Source: Proteus penneri
GTDB lineage: Bacteria > Pseudomonadota > Gammaproteobacteria > Enterobacterales > Enterobacteriaceae
Length of the DNA stretch: 64,000 nt
Direction of reading: 5' to 3'
NCBI RefSeq assembly: GCF_003144535.1
Contig: NZ_PHFJ01000008.1
Coordinates: 1 to 64,000, forward strand
Shown here: in pieces, positions 36,735-41,691 of the stretch
Numbering within the stretch: position 1 is the first letter of the stretch
Layout: every line of letters begins with the position of its first letter
Notes under the pieces: generated by a model
The model's database searches: none
What the model saw: the letters and a program-made list of their open reading frames with translations, nothing else
Told to the model about the DNA's origin: nothing
Translations under genes and position numbers: made by a program

Positions 36735-38393
36735 TTAAGCAAAAATAATCGCTTGATAAGGCTGAAGGATAAGGTCGCCGTGCGCATTTTTCACTATTGG
36801 GCTGTTATGCAAATAGATATCCTTAGCTTTAATGGTTAGTGCCTTTTCTTCACCACTAAAATTACAATAAATATTGATTGAATTACCTTCATAAGTACGC
36901 TTAAAAGCAATCACATTTTCTGGTGAATCTAATGGCAAAAATTCACCATAAATCAAAATATCACTGATCTCTGAATGCCGTCTTAATGCAATCAATTGCT
37001 GGTAATAAGCGAAAAGAGAGTGATTATCTTGCGTTTCTTTCTGTGCATTAATATCGACATAGTTAGGATTAACTTTTAACCATGGTTTACCTGTACTAAA
37101 ACCACTATTTACTTCGCTATTCCATTGGAAAGGTGTTCTTGAATTATCACGGCTACGGTCATTAAAGTATTCAATGATTTGCTTATCGCTGTAACCTAAT
37201 TTCTTACCCCACTCATGTAATTTAAACACATGTAAATCATCATGTTCTTCTAATGTCATCGGGCAATTTGTCATGCCAATCTCTTGCCCTTGATAAATAA
37301 AAGGCGTGCCCCGTTGCGTTAATAAAAATGTTGCTAACATTTTGGCACTAATGGGATTAATAGCACCTTTAGGGAGAAATTTATTTAATGAACGAGGTTG
37401 ATCGTGATTTTCTAAATAAGGCGCTCCCCACCCTACTCTTTGAGTATCTAATTGGCTTTTGATAAATACAGGTTTTAATCTTTCACCTGTAATTGGGTTA
37501 ATTGTAAATGGCTTTTCATTGCGGATATCTAAATCGGCAATGCTAAAATCAAATACCATAGAGAAATAACCATCTTCGCCGACATAAGCACGTAAATCTT
37601 TTTCTGGCACATCAATTTCTGCAACGGTCATACTGTTCACAGGCTTAAAAGTTTTCTCGGCTAATTCAGTTAAGAATTTATCAATACCTGGTTGATTTAA
37701 AACCCAAGGCACTAAAGATGCAGTACCATCATCTTTATCAGGTTCAAATTGATATTCAGATAAGGCTTCAGGGGATTTTTTTAAATTACCAATCGCATCA
37801 ATGCGAAATCCTGCAACCCCTTTTTTGATCCAGACATTTATCATGTCGATAATATCTTTACGTAATTGTGGGTTTTCCCAATTTAAGTCCGGTTGTTCCG
37901 GACCAAATGAATTAAAGTACCAACGATTAGTTTTTCCAACACGACTCCAAACAGAGCAATCAAAATAAGTGCGTAAATTATTAGGAGGAGTCGGCTTATC
38001 CCATTGTTTAAAAATATAATAATCGTTATATGGGCTATTAGGATCTTCAATTGCCGATTTAAACCATGGGTGCTCATCAGAAGTGTGATTTAATACTAAA
38101 TCTAATAAAATTTTAATATCACGTTTTTTAGCTTCACTAATCAGTTTATCTAACGCGTTATTATCGCCAAAGATAGGATCGACAACAGAATAATCAGCAA
38201 TATCATAACCATTGTCTTTCATTGGCGATTTAAAAATGGGGCATAACCAAATAACATTTGTACCGAGTGACTGAATATAATCTAATTTCTCTGTGATCCC
38301 TGCTAAATCCCCAATACCATCCCCATTACTATCATAATAACTCTTGGGATAAATTTGATAGACCACTGCTTCTTTCCACCAAGTTTTAGACAT
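36735..38393 (-). CDS. GH13 alpha-glucosidase (oligo-1,6-glucosidase-like), cytoplasmic
   Basis: A 552-residue glycoside hydrolase of family 13 that cleaves terminal glucose from short alpha-glucosides. The motifs are complete: DLVLNHTSDEHPWF, the nucleophile Asp in GFRIDAIGN, the acid Glu in MTVAEIDV, and ENHDQPRS. There is no signal peptide, so the substrate must be imported, yet no transporter or PTS gene is adjacent. The residue after the nucleophile is Ala rather than the Val of oligo-1,6-glucosidases, which hints at alpha-1,4 preference. I chose the ATG of MSKTWW; a GTG two codons upstream is possible. Confidence 0.88.
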   Translation of the reverse strand: MSKTWWKEAVVYQIYPKSYYDSNGDGIGDLAGITEKLDYIQSLGTNVIWLCPIFKSPMKDNGYDIADYSVVDPIFGDNNALDKLISEAKKRDIKILLDLVLNHTSDEHPWFKSAIEDPNSPYNDYYIFKQWDKPTPPNNLRTYFDCSVWSRVGKTNRWYFNSFGPEQPDLNWENPQLRKDIIDMINVWIKKGVAGFRIDAIGNLKKSPEALSEYQFEPDKDDGTASLVPWVLNQPGIDKFLTELAEKTFKPVNSMTVAEIDVPEKDLRAYVGEDGYFSMVFDFSIADLDIRNEKPFTINPITGERLKPVFIKSQLDTQRVGWGAPYLENHDQPRSLNKFLPKGAINPISAKMLATFLLTQRGTPFIYQGQEIGMTNCPMTLEEHDDLHVFKLHEWGKKLGYSDKQIIEYFNDRSRDNSRTPFQWNSEVNSGFSTGKPWLKVNPNYVDINAQKETQDNHSLFAYYQQLIALRRHSEISDILIYGEFLPLDSPENVIAFKRTYEGNSINIYCNFSGEEKALTIKAKDIYLHNSPIVKNAHGDLILQPYQAIIFA

Positions 38394-38420
38394 ATTCACC
38401 TCACCAAGGTAATTAGTATA

Positions 38421-38437
38421 TATGGAACAGTTCCATA
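38421..38437 (-). promoter_or_regulatory. Palindromic operator, probably for the adjacent LacI-family regulator
   Basis: TATGGAA-CAG-TTCCATA is a perfect 7-bp inverted repeat with a 3-bp centre, 28 bp before the glucosidase start. Size, symmetry and place, beside a divergent LacI-type gene, suit an operator at which that regulator represses the glucosidase. Confidence 0.65.
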
Positions 38438-38495
38438 GTTAATATAAGATACTATAAGCACTAAAAAGGAGGGTAAGGTAATTAACATACTAAAA

Positions 38496-38511
38496 TGTGA
38501 AATAGCTCATA
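38496..38511. promoter_or_regulatory. Probable CRP binding site in the glucosidase-regulator interval
   Basis: TGTGA-AATAGC-TCATA differs from the TGTGA-N6-TCACA consensus at one position and has AAA in front. It lies about 100 bp from both divergent start codons, where CRP could activate either one. Confidence 0.6.
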
Positions 38512-38609
38512 CTAAAAAAACACAATTACCTCAATAAAAATGGGTTTGTAATAATCATATTAAGATATATTAGGACATCAACGAATTGAAAGGAGCAACA
38601 GCATATTCA

Positions 38610-39590
38610 ATGGCCGGGATCCGTGATGTCGCAAAAAAAGCAAATGTCGCAGCAAGTACTGTTTCCAGAGCATTAAATAACAGTGGTTATGTGTCTCAAG
38701 CTGCACGAGAAAAAATAAAAAAAGCGGTAGAGGAATTAGATTATATTCCTGATACTTGGCTAAGAAATTTATATCAACAAAAAAGTGCAGTTGTTGGTGT
38801 CATTATTAATAGCCTTGAATACCCTTATTTTGCGACAGTAACCCGTTTTATTGAAAATAAACTCGCTGAAAATGGCTATAGCATGATGTTATGTGCAACC
38901 CAAAATAGCAAAGTACGTGAGCGTATATTTTTTGATATGCTTAAACGTGGTCAGATCGACGGTATTATTGCAGAATATCTGTTATTGGATGATAGTGAAT
39001 ATCAGCATATTCAAAGACCTGTAGTCACACTAGATCGCCATCTTCGTGATATTCCATTAGTTTGTTCTGATCACCACACGGGTGGTCGATTAGCAGCAGA
39101 ACACCTTATTCAAAAAGGTTGCAAGAAAATCCTCTATATTGAAGATAACTCAAGTTATTTATCATCAACCCCTTCATATCAAAGCTGTTTAGCCTTTAAA
39201 GAAACGCTTATTCAGGCAGGTATTAACCCCATTCCTTGCAAAGTAAATTGGAAAGAAGAAGAGAAAGACTATTTTCACTCTTTCGCAACAAAAATACTTT
39301 CTTTGCATACAGATATCGATGCTATTTTTGCTGCTGATATTCCTGCCATGGCATTGTTTAATGAAGCCACAAGGCGAAATATTACCATTCCAGAGCAACT
39401 AAAAATTGTTGCTTACGATGGTAGCCCTTGGTTAAATCAAACACTGCGCCAGTTAACCTGTATTGAACAACCCTTTGAAAAACTAGCTGAAAAAAGCGTA
39501 GAAGTGATTAGTACATTAATTGAGAATAAAGAAATAACAGATAACGTTTCTGTTATTCCAGTGAAGTTTATTCAAGGTGAAAGTAGTTAG
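38610..39590 (+). CDS. LacI family transcription regulator
   Basis: A 326-residue regulator with the N-terminal LacI helix-turn-helix (GIRDVAKKANVAASTVSRALNNSGYVS, about 3-29), then a hinge helix and a periplasmic-binding-protein-like effector domain (about 58-320). I start it at MAGIRDV; a TTG eight codons upstream is poor. The AGGAG sequence is 14 bp before this ATG, which is long. It is divergent from the glucosidase gene and very likely controls it through the palindrome at 38421. The inducer is unknown. Confidence 0.9.
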   Translation: MAGIRDVAKKANVAASTVSRALNNSGYVSQAAREKIKKAVEELDYIPDTWLRNLYQQKSAVVGVIINSLEYPYFATVTRFIENKLAENGYSMMLCATQNSKVRERIFFDMLKRGQIDGIIAEYLLLDDSEYQHIQRPVVTLDRHLRDIPLVCSDHHTGGRLAAEHLIQKGCKKILYIEDNSSYLSSTPSYQSCLAFKETLIQAGINPIPCKVNWKEEEKDYFHSFATKILSLHTDIDAIFAADIPAMALFNEATRRNITIPEQLKIVAYDGSPWLNQTLRQLTCIEQPFEKLAEKSVEVISTLIENKEITDNVSVIPVKFIQGESS

Positions 39591-39649: not shown

Positions 39650-39690
39650 AAAACGCCAAAGAAAGTTACCCTTCTCTAGCGTTTTAGTCG
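39650..39690. terminator. Possible terminator between the LacI-family and RidA genes
   Basis: AAAACGC / GCGTTTT arms with a 22-nt interior lie between the converging genes. The stem is short, so termination here is likely but weak. Confidence 0.4.
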
Positions 39691-39729: not shown

Positions 39730-40224
39730 TTATTTTGCAGGACGAACCGCAATCACTTCAATTTCTACACGCCATGCTGGATTCGCCAGTTTAGCGATTT
39801 GGAAAGTTGAGCGTGCTGGCAGTTGGTCAGTTTTCGAAGCATCAAAGTACTTAGAATAACCATCCATAAAACCTTTAAAGTCCATCTCACCTTTAGTTTC
39901 TTCACCACCAACTAGGAAGACTTGCATTTTAACAACGTCTTTCATGTCTAGGCCAAGTTCATTTAAGTGAGTTTTAATTTGTTCTAATACACTGATAGTT
40001 TGTTCTTCAGTGTTACCATAAGACGCTAATACGCCTTCTGGTGCATCTGCTGATTTCTTAGCAGGTACTTTACCGCTTAAGAATACAAGGTTGTTACCTG
40101 CACTCACTTCAACAGATTCTGAAATAGGCATACCGTTTAATTTATGGTGCACAACACCCTCCGCATTCGCGCTTGCTACACCAAAGATAAAAGGCAGGGC
40201 AACAAGTAAACTTTTATAACGCAT
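39730..40224 (-). CDS. Exported RidA-family (YjgF/YER057c/UK114) protein
   Basis: RidA proteins hydrolyse reactive 2-imino acids to 2-keto acids and ammonia. This 164-residue member has a signal peptide (about 1-21, ending ASANA) that most RidA proteins lack, so it should act in the periplasm. The C-terminal motif PARSTFQIAKL with its catalytic arginine, and RVEIEVIA with the glutamate, are conserved, so activity is plausible. It lies 45 bp downstream of the L-amino acid deaminase with a good ribosome site (AAGGAG) and no terminator between, so the two are likely one operon. Confidence 0.88.
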   Translation of the reverse strand: MRYKSLLVALPFIFGVASANAEGVVHHKLNGMPISESVEVSAGNNLVFLSGKVPAKKSADAPEGVLASYGNTEEQTISVLEQIKTHLNELGLDMKDVVKMQVFLVGGEETKGEMDFKGFMDGYSKYFDASKTDQLPARSTFQIAKLANPAWRVEIEVIAVRPAK

Positions 40225-40269
40225 GAAAACTCCTTAACATGTTTAATTTACAGTAAAACAAGGGGTTAT

Positions 40270-41691
40270 TTACTTCTTAAAGCGATCCATACTAAATGGT
40301 GTTGGATCAATAACTGGTTTTTTGCCCGTTACGATATCAGCAGTAACTTCACCTGCTGCTGGGCCTTCGGTCATACCCCATACCGTCGCCGTATTAATGA
40401 CAAGACCAGGGTATTCTTTAACCTCAGAGATAATTGGTAATTCATCAAATGTTGGGCTAACAACAGCACCCCAACGCTCCACAACTTGTGATTTTTCAAA
40501 TACTGGGAATTCAGCTTTCATTCTTTGGAATACCGCATCTAAGTGCTCAGTATTTTGTGTTGCTGTTGCAATACGATATTGTTCAAACGGTGTTTTTTCA
40601 TCTAATTTCCAAGATGTTGGCATCTTGAATGAATTAAACAAGTCTTCACCGATAGAGAATTCTAATGGCAGCTCACCACCACCTAATAGGTGCATGAACT
40701 TAGGCCCTAATAAGAAGCTATCTTTCACAATAGAACTGGTGAAAATACGCGGTGCGACAGCATAAGTACCGTCGGCTTGTTCACGGAAGTGAATACCATT
40801 CGGTAAATGCACGTTACCACGAGGTGCGCCAGGAACACCTGATACACGTTGTTGTGATAAGTAAACATTCAGCGTTGGAATATCAATGCCCATGTTACCC
40901 ATAAATAAACGTGACCAAATACCACCAGCAAGAACAACGTGAGATGTTCTAATTGCGCCTTTTTCTGTTACAACATCAGAAATTTTACCACCGGCAGTTT
41001 CAATGCCTCTTACCGCGCAGTTAGTATAGATTTTTACGCCAATTTGTTTAGCGTAGCGTGCTAATGCAGGTGTTCCTGTTTCGGGATCAACAGAACCTGA
41101 GTCTTCTTCAAAAGCAGCAACTGTCCATGGTGTTTGAGCACCAACAAGACGGTTTGATAACTCTTCACCTTTAATAATGCGAGTATTTAATGGTGTATCA
41201 AATCCCGCAGTTTCTTTTGCTGTTTTGATCCACGCTTGAGCTTTATCAAATGCTTTTTCATCAGCAAGCGCTTCTACACGACCTTGTGTACGATAACTAG
41301 TATCAGCACCAATTTTCTCGTTCATTCCGCGCCATAAGATTTTCCCGTAATGGTGCAATGGGAAAATTTCTGGTGATGTTTGATAACTAATAATTTGGCT
41401 GTATGCACGGCCAGATTGTTCACCGCCAATCTCGCCCTTTTCTAAAATAGTGACACTCATGCCACGTTCTGCAAGGTTGATAGCAGTCATGATACCTTGA
41501 ATACCACCACCAATAATCACTGCATCAGACTCTTTAGGCAGCGCACCCTCTGTACCTTCGACAAATGATGCTCTAGATTTAGCTTCAACGAATTTGCCAT
41601 CACGGCGCACCATTGGAACTAATGCAGCACCACCGGCCAAAACCCCCGCAGCACCAACACCTAAAAGCAGCTTTCTCCTTGAAATTTTCAT
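40270..41691 (-). CDS. Membrane-bound FAD-dependent L-amino acid deaminase
   Basis: Oxidatively deaminates L-amino acids to 2-keto acids and ammonia, passing electrons to the respiratory chain rather than to oxygen directly. The 473-residue protein starts MKISRRKLLLGVGAAGVLAG, a twin-arginine motif inside a hydrophobic anchor. It then has the FAD-binding VIIGGGIQGIMTAINLAERG (about 57-76) and a DAO fold ending in VINTATVWGMTEGPAAGE. From memory it matches the Proteus type II deaminase, with a broad range that includes aromatic and basic amino acids. It is the first gene of a likely operon with the exported RidA. A TyrR box is upstream. Confidence 0.93.
   Translation of the reverse strand: MKISRRKLLLGVGAAGVLAGGAALVPMVRRDGKFVEAKSRASFVEGTEGALPKESDAVIIGGGIQGIMTAINLAERGMSVTILEKGEIGGEQSGRAYSQIISYQTSPEIFPLHHYGKILWRGMNEKIGADTSYRTQGRVEALADEKAFDKAQAWIKTAKETAGFDTPLNTRIIKGEELSNRLVGAQTPWTVAAFEEDSGSVDPETGTPALARYAKQIGVKIYTNCAVRGIETAGGKISDVVTEKGAIRTSHVVLAGGIWSRLFMGNMGIDIPTLNVYLSQQRVSGVPGAPRGNVHLPNGIHFREQADGTYAVAPRIFTSSIVKDSFLLGPKFMHLLGGGELPLEFSIGEDLFNSFKMPTSWKLDEKTPFEQYRIATATQNTEHLDAVFQRMKAEFPVFEKSQVVERWGAVVSPTFDELPIISEVKEYPGLVINTATVWGMTEGPAAGEVTADIVTGKKPVIDPTPFSMDRFKK

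Follow-up and report, generated by a model that had tools for sequence, protein, structure and literature searches.

An L-amino acid deaminase (LAAD) gene in Proteus penneri is followed by a gene for a Rid protein with its own signal peptide, and the locus raises the question of what an exported Rid does beside a membrane-anchored deaminase. The pair lies in a window of 64,000 nucleotides, the whole stretch of DNA that was analyzed (contig NZ_PHFJ01000008.1, positions 1 to 64,000); its features are collected in Table 1. The explanation that we consider likely is that the Rid protein is an accessory factor that deaminates imines in the periplasm on behalf of exported L-amino acid oxidoreductases, here in an operon with LAAD.

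Table 1. Features of the LAAD-rid locus (window coordinates).
Feature	Position	Strand	Basis or remark
Terminator-like hairpin with T-run, 3' of rid	39650-39685	-	Consensus scan
rid gene, exported Rid3-type protein, probable imine deaminase	39730-40224	-	164 aa; ORF, PF01042
Glu154 codon, aligned with RidA Glu120	39763-39765	-	Glu in 143/143 aligned Rids
Arg138 codon, aligned with RidA Arg105	39811-39813	-	Arg in 143/143 aligned Rids
Ile34 codon, in register with the active-site Tyr of RidA; Ile here is the published mark of Rid3	40123-40125	-	Alignment; signature from PMC4433059
Sec-type signal peptide of Rid, probable cleavage after residue 21 (ANA)	40162-40224	-	Sequence rules
Intergenic gap between LAAD and rid, 45 bp	40225-40269		AAGGAG (minus strand) at 40230-40235
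LAAD gene (L-amino acid deaminase, FAD)	40270-41691	-	473 aa, first of the pair; ORF, DAO, 5fjm and 5hxw matches
Tat-type N-terminal membrane anchor of LAAD (SRRKLL and hydrophobic segment)	41611-41691	-	Sequence; PMC5651824

The LAAD product matches the Pfam family DAO (E 4e-56) and two solved LAADs, 5fjm (974 bits over residues 26-473) and 5hxw (573 bits), which we take to be the enzymes of P. myxofaciens and P. vulgaris, respectively; it belongs with the DAO-fold FAD enzymes of this family. The rid product matches PF01042 (E 3.8e-21). The preliminary description had presented the two genes as a same-strand pair, 45 bp apart, with no terminator between them. The open reading frame coordinates and a consensus scan agree: the scan found no terminator-like site in the gap, and 4 such sites in the region against 1.9 expected by chance. 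Promoter-like matches in the region (8 found, 9.1 expected) are not above chance. On the minus strand, AAGGAG is read 5 nt ahead of the rid ATG. Beyond rid, at 36735-39590, a gene that by eye resembles one for an alpha-glucosidase and a gene for a LacI-family regulator (PF00356) lie in divergent orientation; both look unrelated to the LAAD-rid pair.

Both products carry predicted export signals, as had been proposed. The LAAD N-terminus, MKISRRKLLLGVGAAGVLAGGAALVP, is of the Tat type, with SRRKLL followed by an uncharged segment, and the available part of a study of LAAD membrane binding (PMC5651824) states that LAADs of this class carry a non-cleavable Tat peptide; the earlier view of a Tat-like, membrane-anchored enzyme thus holds. 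The Rid N-terminus, MRYKSLLVALPFIFGVASANA/EG, has an A-x-A site and looks like a Sec-type signal; a simple hydrophobicity rule agrees with this visual reading, and sequence rules find the same kind of start in its relatives. A signal peptide is absent from the other two PF01042 proteins encoded in this genome. One part of the preliminary description that did not survive is the treatment of a signal-bearing Rid as an exception. When one hydrophobic-segment rule, a heuristic, was used for all loci, a signal peptide was called in 128 of the 147 sampled loci, so that export is the rule among these relatives. Lipobox-like starts (LAGC, VTGC, LTGC, LGAC) are seen in the exported Rids of L066, L206, L208, L209, and L210; such lipoprotein-like Rids would represent another route out of the cytoplasm.

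The protein had been called a RidA-family imine hydrolase with the R and E of the RidA motif present. The two residues were indeed found: when 143 sampled Rids and the RidA of the same genome were aligned, R138 and E154 fell on the RidA Arg and Glu. Both are kept in every sampled Rid, and the position of Ile34 is occupied by Ile in 140/143; the three exceptions (L268-L270) come from loci where neither signal peptide nor partner was found. The own-genome RidA also keeps Arg and Glu, and has Tyr at the Ile34 position. Arg105 of RidA is required for its imine deaminase activity. In the accessible text of Niehaus 2015 (PMC4433059), the Rid3 signature is retention of the RidA Arg and Glu with a change of the active-site Tyr to Ile. 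The best solved relatives of the window Rid are 9bka (PSPTO3006, 107 bits) and 9bkc (PFL1385, 82 bits), and both proteins are listed as Rid3 in table 3 of PMC5619798, as far as that paper was available. Because R138, E154, and I34 are present and the best solved relatives are Rid3 proteins, the window protein is by its sequence a Rid3 and not a RidA. Thus, assignment to the Rid family stands (PF01042, Arg, and Glu), and assignment to RidA proper is ruled out by the Rid3 Ile together with a TIGR00004 score of 60.2 bits, below the curated cut-off of 106.25. A Rid2 of the DadY type is likewise ruled out by the Rid3 residue and the Rid3 best matches; the protein may still work in the manner of the DadA-DadY pair.

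Adjacency of LAAD and rid proved to be conserved in relatives, as the preliminary description required. The two genes adjoin in 20/20 Proteus genomes, with a gap of 40-48 bp from the LAAD stop, and also in Morganella and Providencia. Each of the 20 Proteus genomes contains a single close Rid (E up to 1e-20), located at LAAD. A second LAAD (56-57% identity, one cut short) without a close Rid occurs in 18 of the 20; in the window genome (G000), the Rid-linked LAAD is the sole copy at E 1e-100. Among 198 genomes of the family, LAAD with at least 74% identity was found in 4, and a close Rid (at least 69%) was found in the same 4, adjacent each time. In genome G154 of this sample, LAAD is present and a close Rid was not found. 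That LAAD always needs a neighboring Rid is ruled out by the unlinked paralogue and by G154.

The distribution was extended by searching named genomes for proteins similar to Rid. Among the best 80 of 571 confirmed matches, LAAD was found at 40 loci, a MAO-type oxidase at 36, and neither at 4; LAAD lies just upstream of Rid in Proteus, Morganella, Providencia, Xenorhabdus mauleonii, Ignatzschineria, a Lysobacteraceae MAG, and 10 Pseudomonas loci. All LAAD copies were then sought in 32 named genomes: 30 have LAAD, with a linked copy in 30/30 and a second copy in 18. No LAAD was found at E 1e-60 in two Wohlfahrtiimonas genomes, though Rid is present; their orphan exported Rids (L112 and L115) lie downstream of genes that, on visual inspection, resemble those for cytochrome oxidase. 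On the Lysobacteraceae MAG contig (L113), LAAD is split in two open frames and adjoins an intact Rid. Two P. mirabilis records of about 4.08 Mb that are filed as plasmids and hold Rid (one is L064, NZ_OL790811.1) are probably chromosomes, and the LAAD-Rid locus was confirmed in one of them. Synonymous distances of the two genes from the window are opposed in two species: in P. alimentorum (L105), dS is 0.21 for LAAD and 0.53 for rid, and in P. hauseri (L104), 0.68 and 0.39, respectively. This opposition suggests exchange of rid alleles within Proteus.

The Rid lineage is not dedicated to LAAD, since relatives of the window Rid more often adjoin another Tat-type flavin oxidase in the sampled loci. 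A set of 111 loci was collected by Rid similarity, not by neighbors, and includes the best 80 of 571 from the named genomes. In the stretch around Rid, 41 of these loci contain LAAD, 65 contain a MAO-type oxidase, and 5 contain neither; the oxidase is on the same strand within 700 bp in 101 of the 106 oxidase-bearing loci, and a cytochrome-c-like match is present in 54/65 MAO-type stretches. The set was enlarged by 37 of 40 Pseudomonas matches, with G687 (at a contig start), G343, and G491 (already included) left out. Removal of L070, in which neither a Rid start nor an oxidase was found, gave the 147 loci used here; species recur among the 148 loci (e.g., L139 and L234), and the loci do not count as independent. 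LAAD is the partner in 42 of the 147, always on the same strand and 12-221 bp from Rid; MAO-type oxidases are found in 98, on the same strand within 700 bp in 93, and 7 loci have neither. The irregular cases are L071, L218, and L219 (oxidase 3.1-3.4 kb off), L225 (two Rids), and L176 (opposite strand). The RR motif is present in 137/140 partner oxidases.

The MAO-type module is also found on plasmids, of which 8 of 20 listed matches were inspected. Plasmids of Ketogulonicigenium, Comamonas, Sulfitobacter, and Paracoccus have the annotated order flavin oxidase, cytochrome c, Rid. In three plasmid records with few or no annotated genes, sequence comparison found LAAD (P. mirabilis) or a MAO-type oxidase with cytochrome c (Microvirga), and no oxidase near Rid in the Komagataeibacter plasmid stretch. 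On a Sphingomonas plasmid, a TonB receptor gene sits between. The one MAO-type partner compared with solved structures, that of Comamonas, has as its best match the L-amino acid oxidase 2jae (313 bits), presumably the Rhodococcus enzyme, and from this match we infer that 2-imino acids are the expected product of LAAD and MAO-type partners alike.

Do these associations reflect function? Rid was found in 24 of 398 genomes of the phylum, the MAO-type oxidase in 20, and both in 17 (hypergeometric 1.2e-21, uncorrected for kinship). Chance adjacency is ruled out by the 20/20 Proteus genomes and by co-occurrence in 17/20 MAO genomes. Neutral hitch-hiking, in which rid would be kept by operon inertia with no functional coupling, might explain why some oxidases do without a Rid (of 23 strong MAO loci, 5 have none in the stretch, each with a cytochrome-c-like match), and hydrolysis can proceed without Rid. 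Nevertheless, hitch-hiking is very improbable in view of the same co-occurrence, of an adjacency that persists in distant families with two partner types, and of the substitution pattern of rid: dN/dS is 0.01-0.15 in 9/11 picked comparisons, with dS too high for an estimate in the other 2. By these ratios, rid is under purifying selection.

The phylogenetic tree of the Rids is a quick one with many open forks, built on 132 columns and 145 rows, of which 143 are sampled Rids and two are paralogues from the window genome. The LAAD-linked Rids, together with the two Wohlfahrtiimonas orphans, form one starred clade, and a single change accounts for partner type on this tree. Nesting of the clade among the MAO-linked xanthomonad Rids depends on forks with support values of 84-94, which fall short of the starred level. 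Since the single LAAD-linked clade seems to lie within the MAO-linked Rids, the simplest reading of the tree is one switch, in which LAAD replaced a MAO/cytochrome c module and the cytochrome was lost. The tree for LAAD (80 rows, 60 different, midpoint root) groups the unlinked Proteus/Providencia-type paralogue with the linked Pseudomonas LAADs (98, starred), and no Rid was found beside the 55-57% paralogue in 16 stretches (13 distinct loci; only 112 bases downstream in L098). By this grouping, a Rid probably once accompanied the unlinked copy and was lost, in genomes that carry a Rid at another locus.

Partner loss is relevant to another explanation, namely that the Rid acts on some other target in the envelope, for example in a general stress or chaperone role, and that the pairing reflects shared regulation. 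Oxidized RidA has a chaperone role, and exported Rids with no oxidase found in the stretch do exist (L112, L115, L165, L179, and possibly L070). However, two of these are the Wohlfahrtiimonas orphans, whose position inside the LAAD-linked clade makes them look like cases of partner loss, and an amino-acid-oxidase-like gene is present in the same stretch in 106/111 loci. We therefore regard a separate envelope role as unlikely, and retain the function as an imine deaminase as the preferred explanation.

A second evolutionary pattern concerns export itself. Charges were counted in the 18 residues after the RR motif; the measure was revised from 24 residues, which ran past the LAAD signal into RRDGK. 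Where Rid has a signal (121 RR-motif loci), the oxidase Tat segment contains 0-1 charges in 120, and 2 in L257. Where it has none (16 loci: L224, L226, L240, L244, L247-L252, L255, L256, L258-L260, and L266, all PSPTO3006-like), the segment contains 2-4 charges in 16/16 (Fisher 5.7e-20, for what amounts to 1-2 independent events). The oxidases of these 16 loci keep TRREAL, with a charged, degraded Tat segment. The genus of these loci was deduced to be Pseudomonas; G491 was assigned to that genus by its LAAD, which is identical in L234 and in the named L139. Such covariation fits partners that must share a compartment, although the events are few.

The joint loss of export and the adjacency maintained across the partner switch fit a shared substrate, but equally well a Rid3 that is exported and co-expressed mainly as a physical partner or stabilizer of the oxidase or of a membrane complex, with imine hydrolysis being secondary. 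Such a role is improbable, if the least so of the alternatives considered here: LAAD and the MAO-type partners are different families, the catalytic Arg and Glu are kept in 143/143 Rids, and LAAD needs no Rid for activity when produced in E. coli, according to the available part of PMC5651824, where no Rid is named. A shared imine substrate would explain both partner types, and a broader scenario, which we hold to be slightly favored, can be proposed. In this scenario, exported Rid3 proteins would generally assist Tat-exported L-amino acid oxidoreductases by clearing imines in the periplasm; one lineage would have exchanged its L-amino-acid-oxidase/cytochrome-c module for the respiratory LAAD, and in Pseudomonas the two partners would have relocated together to the cytosol.

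For the window locus, the following mechanism may be suggested. LAAD and rid would form an operon, with co-transcription presumed, for amino-acid oxidation at the outer face of the inner membrane. The Tat-anchored LAAD would oxidize L-amino acids to 2-imino acids, pass the electrons to the respiratory chain, and let the free imine out. The Sec-exported Rid3 would then accelerate hydrolysis of the imine, to 2-oxo acid and ammonium, beyond its unaided rate in water, thereby limiting side reactions in the cell envelope and speeding keto-acid release. It would be an accessory protein and not an obligate subunit, and its relatives would serve Tat-exported L-amino-acid-oxidase-like enzymes, usually with cytochrome c. 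The periplasmic location, the imine substrate, and the benefit are what we infer from the signal peptide, the residues, and the partners. Imines hydrolyze in water unaided, so the gain from Rid may be small. Two published results, each from the part of the paper available, bear on the imine step: in whole-cell reactions the imino acid made by Proteus LAAD is trapped and reduced by added borane (PMC4531825), which implies that it leaves the enzyme, and Rid2 and Rid3 proteins take flavoenzyme-released imines in vitro (PMC5619798).

If this is true, imine-damage control has a second, extracytoplasmic arm beside the known cytosolic one; the Rid literature on the subject, as far as available, does not name a periplasmic arm. 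The tie between exported Rid3 and exported amino-acid oxidoreductases also provides a testable substrate, compartment, and partner for Rid3. Proteus LAAD also has uses in biocatalysis, where it yields keto acids or, if the imine is reduced with borane, D-amino acids (PMC4531825); mature Rid added to LAAD should favor keto acids and harm the D-amino acid route.

Part of this picture is already published. In the accessible text of Niehaus 2015 (PMC4433059), RidA, and sometimes Rid3, clusters with FAD amine oxidases, and imine hydrolysis is proposed; the main text, to the extent available, does not mention periplasm, signal peptide, cytochrome, or Proteus. Among the open-licence PMC main texts available, we found none that describes pairing of an exported Rid, be it with LAAD or with the combination of oxidase and cytochrome c, and none that describes the partner switch or the joint export loss. 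The accessible part of the study of membrane binding by pvLAAD (PMC5651824) mentions neither Rid nor imino. Within that coverage, the pairing with LAAD appears to be new, as do the exported module of oxidase, cytochrome, and Rid, the switch of partner, and the shared loss of export.

Three known systems resemble the window pair. One is DadA-DadY of Pseudomonas aeruginosa (PMC9714295, available part), where an FAD amino acid dehydrogenase and a Rid are likewise encoded in one operon, DadA releases the imine, DadY deaminates it, and the Rid gives a fitness gain. However, DadY is a Rid2, the oxidoreductase is a different one, and the main text available contains no periplasm, signal peptide, or signal sequence. 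In OngC-OngD of Pseudoalteromonas prydzensis (PMC9537276), OngD has 127 aa and a role called unknown there, and the OngC deaminase is predicted to be cytoplasmic, unlike the Tat-anchored LAAD of the window. The best solved relatives are PSPTO_3006 and PFL_1385 (9bka and 9bkc), which like the window Rid keep Arg, Glu, and the Rid3 Ile. Imine deamination by these two proteins was shown in vitro (PMC5619798, available part). In the Pseudomonas loci, the PSPTO_3006-like Rids lack a signal peptide and the oxidase Tat segment is charged, whereas the window Rid is predicted to be exported and is paired with LAAD.
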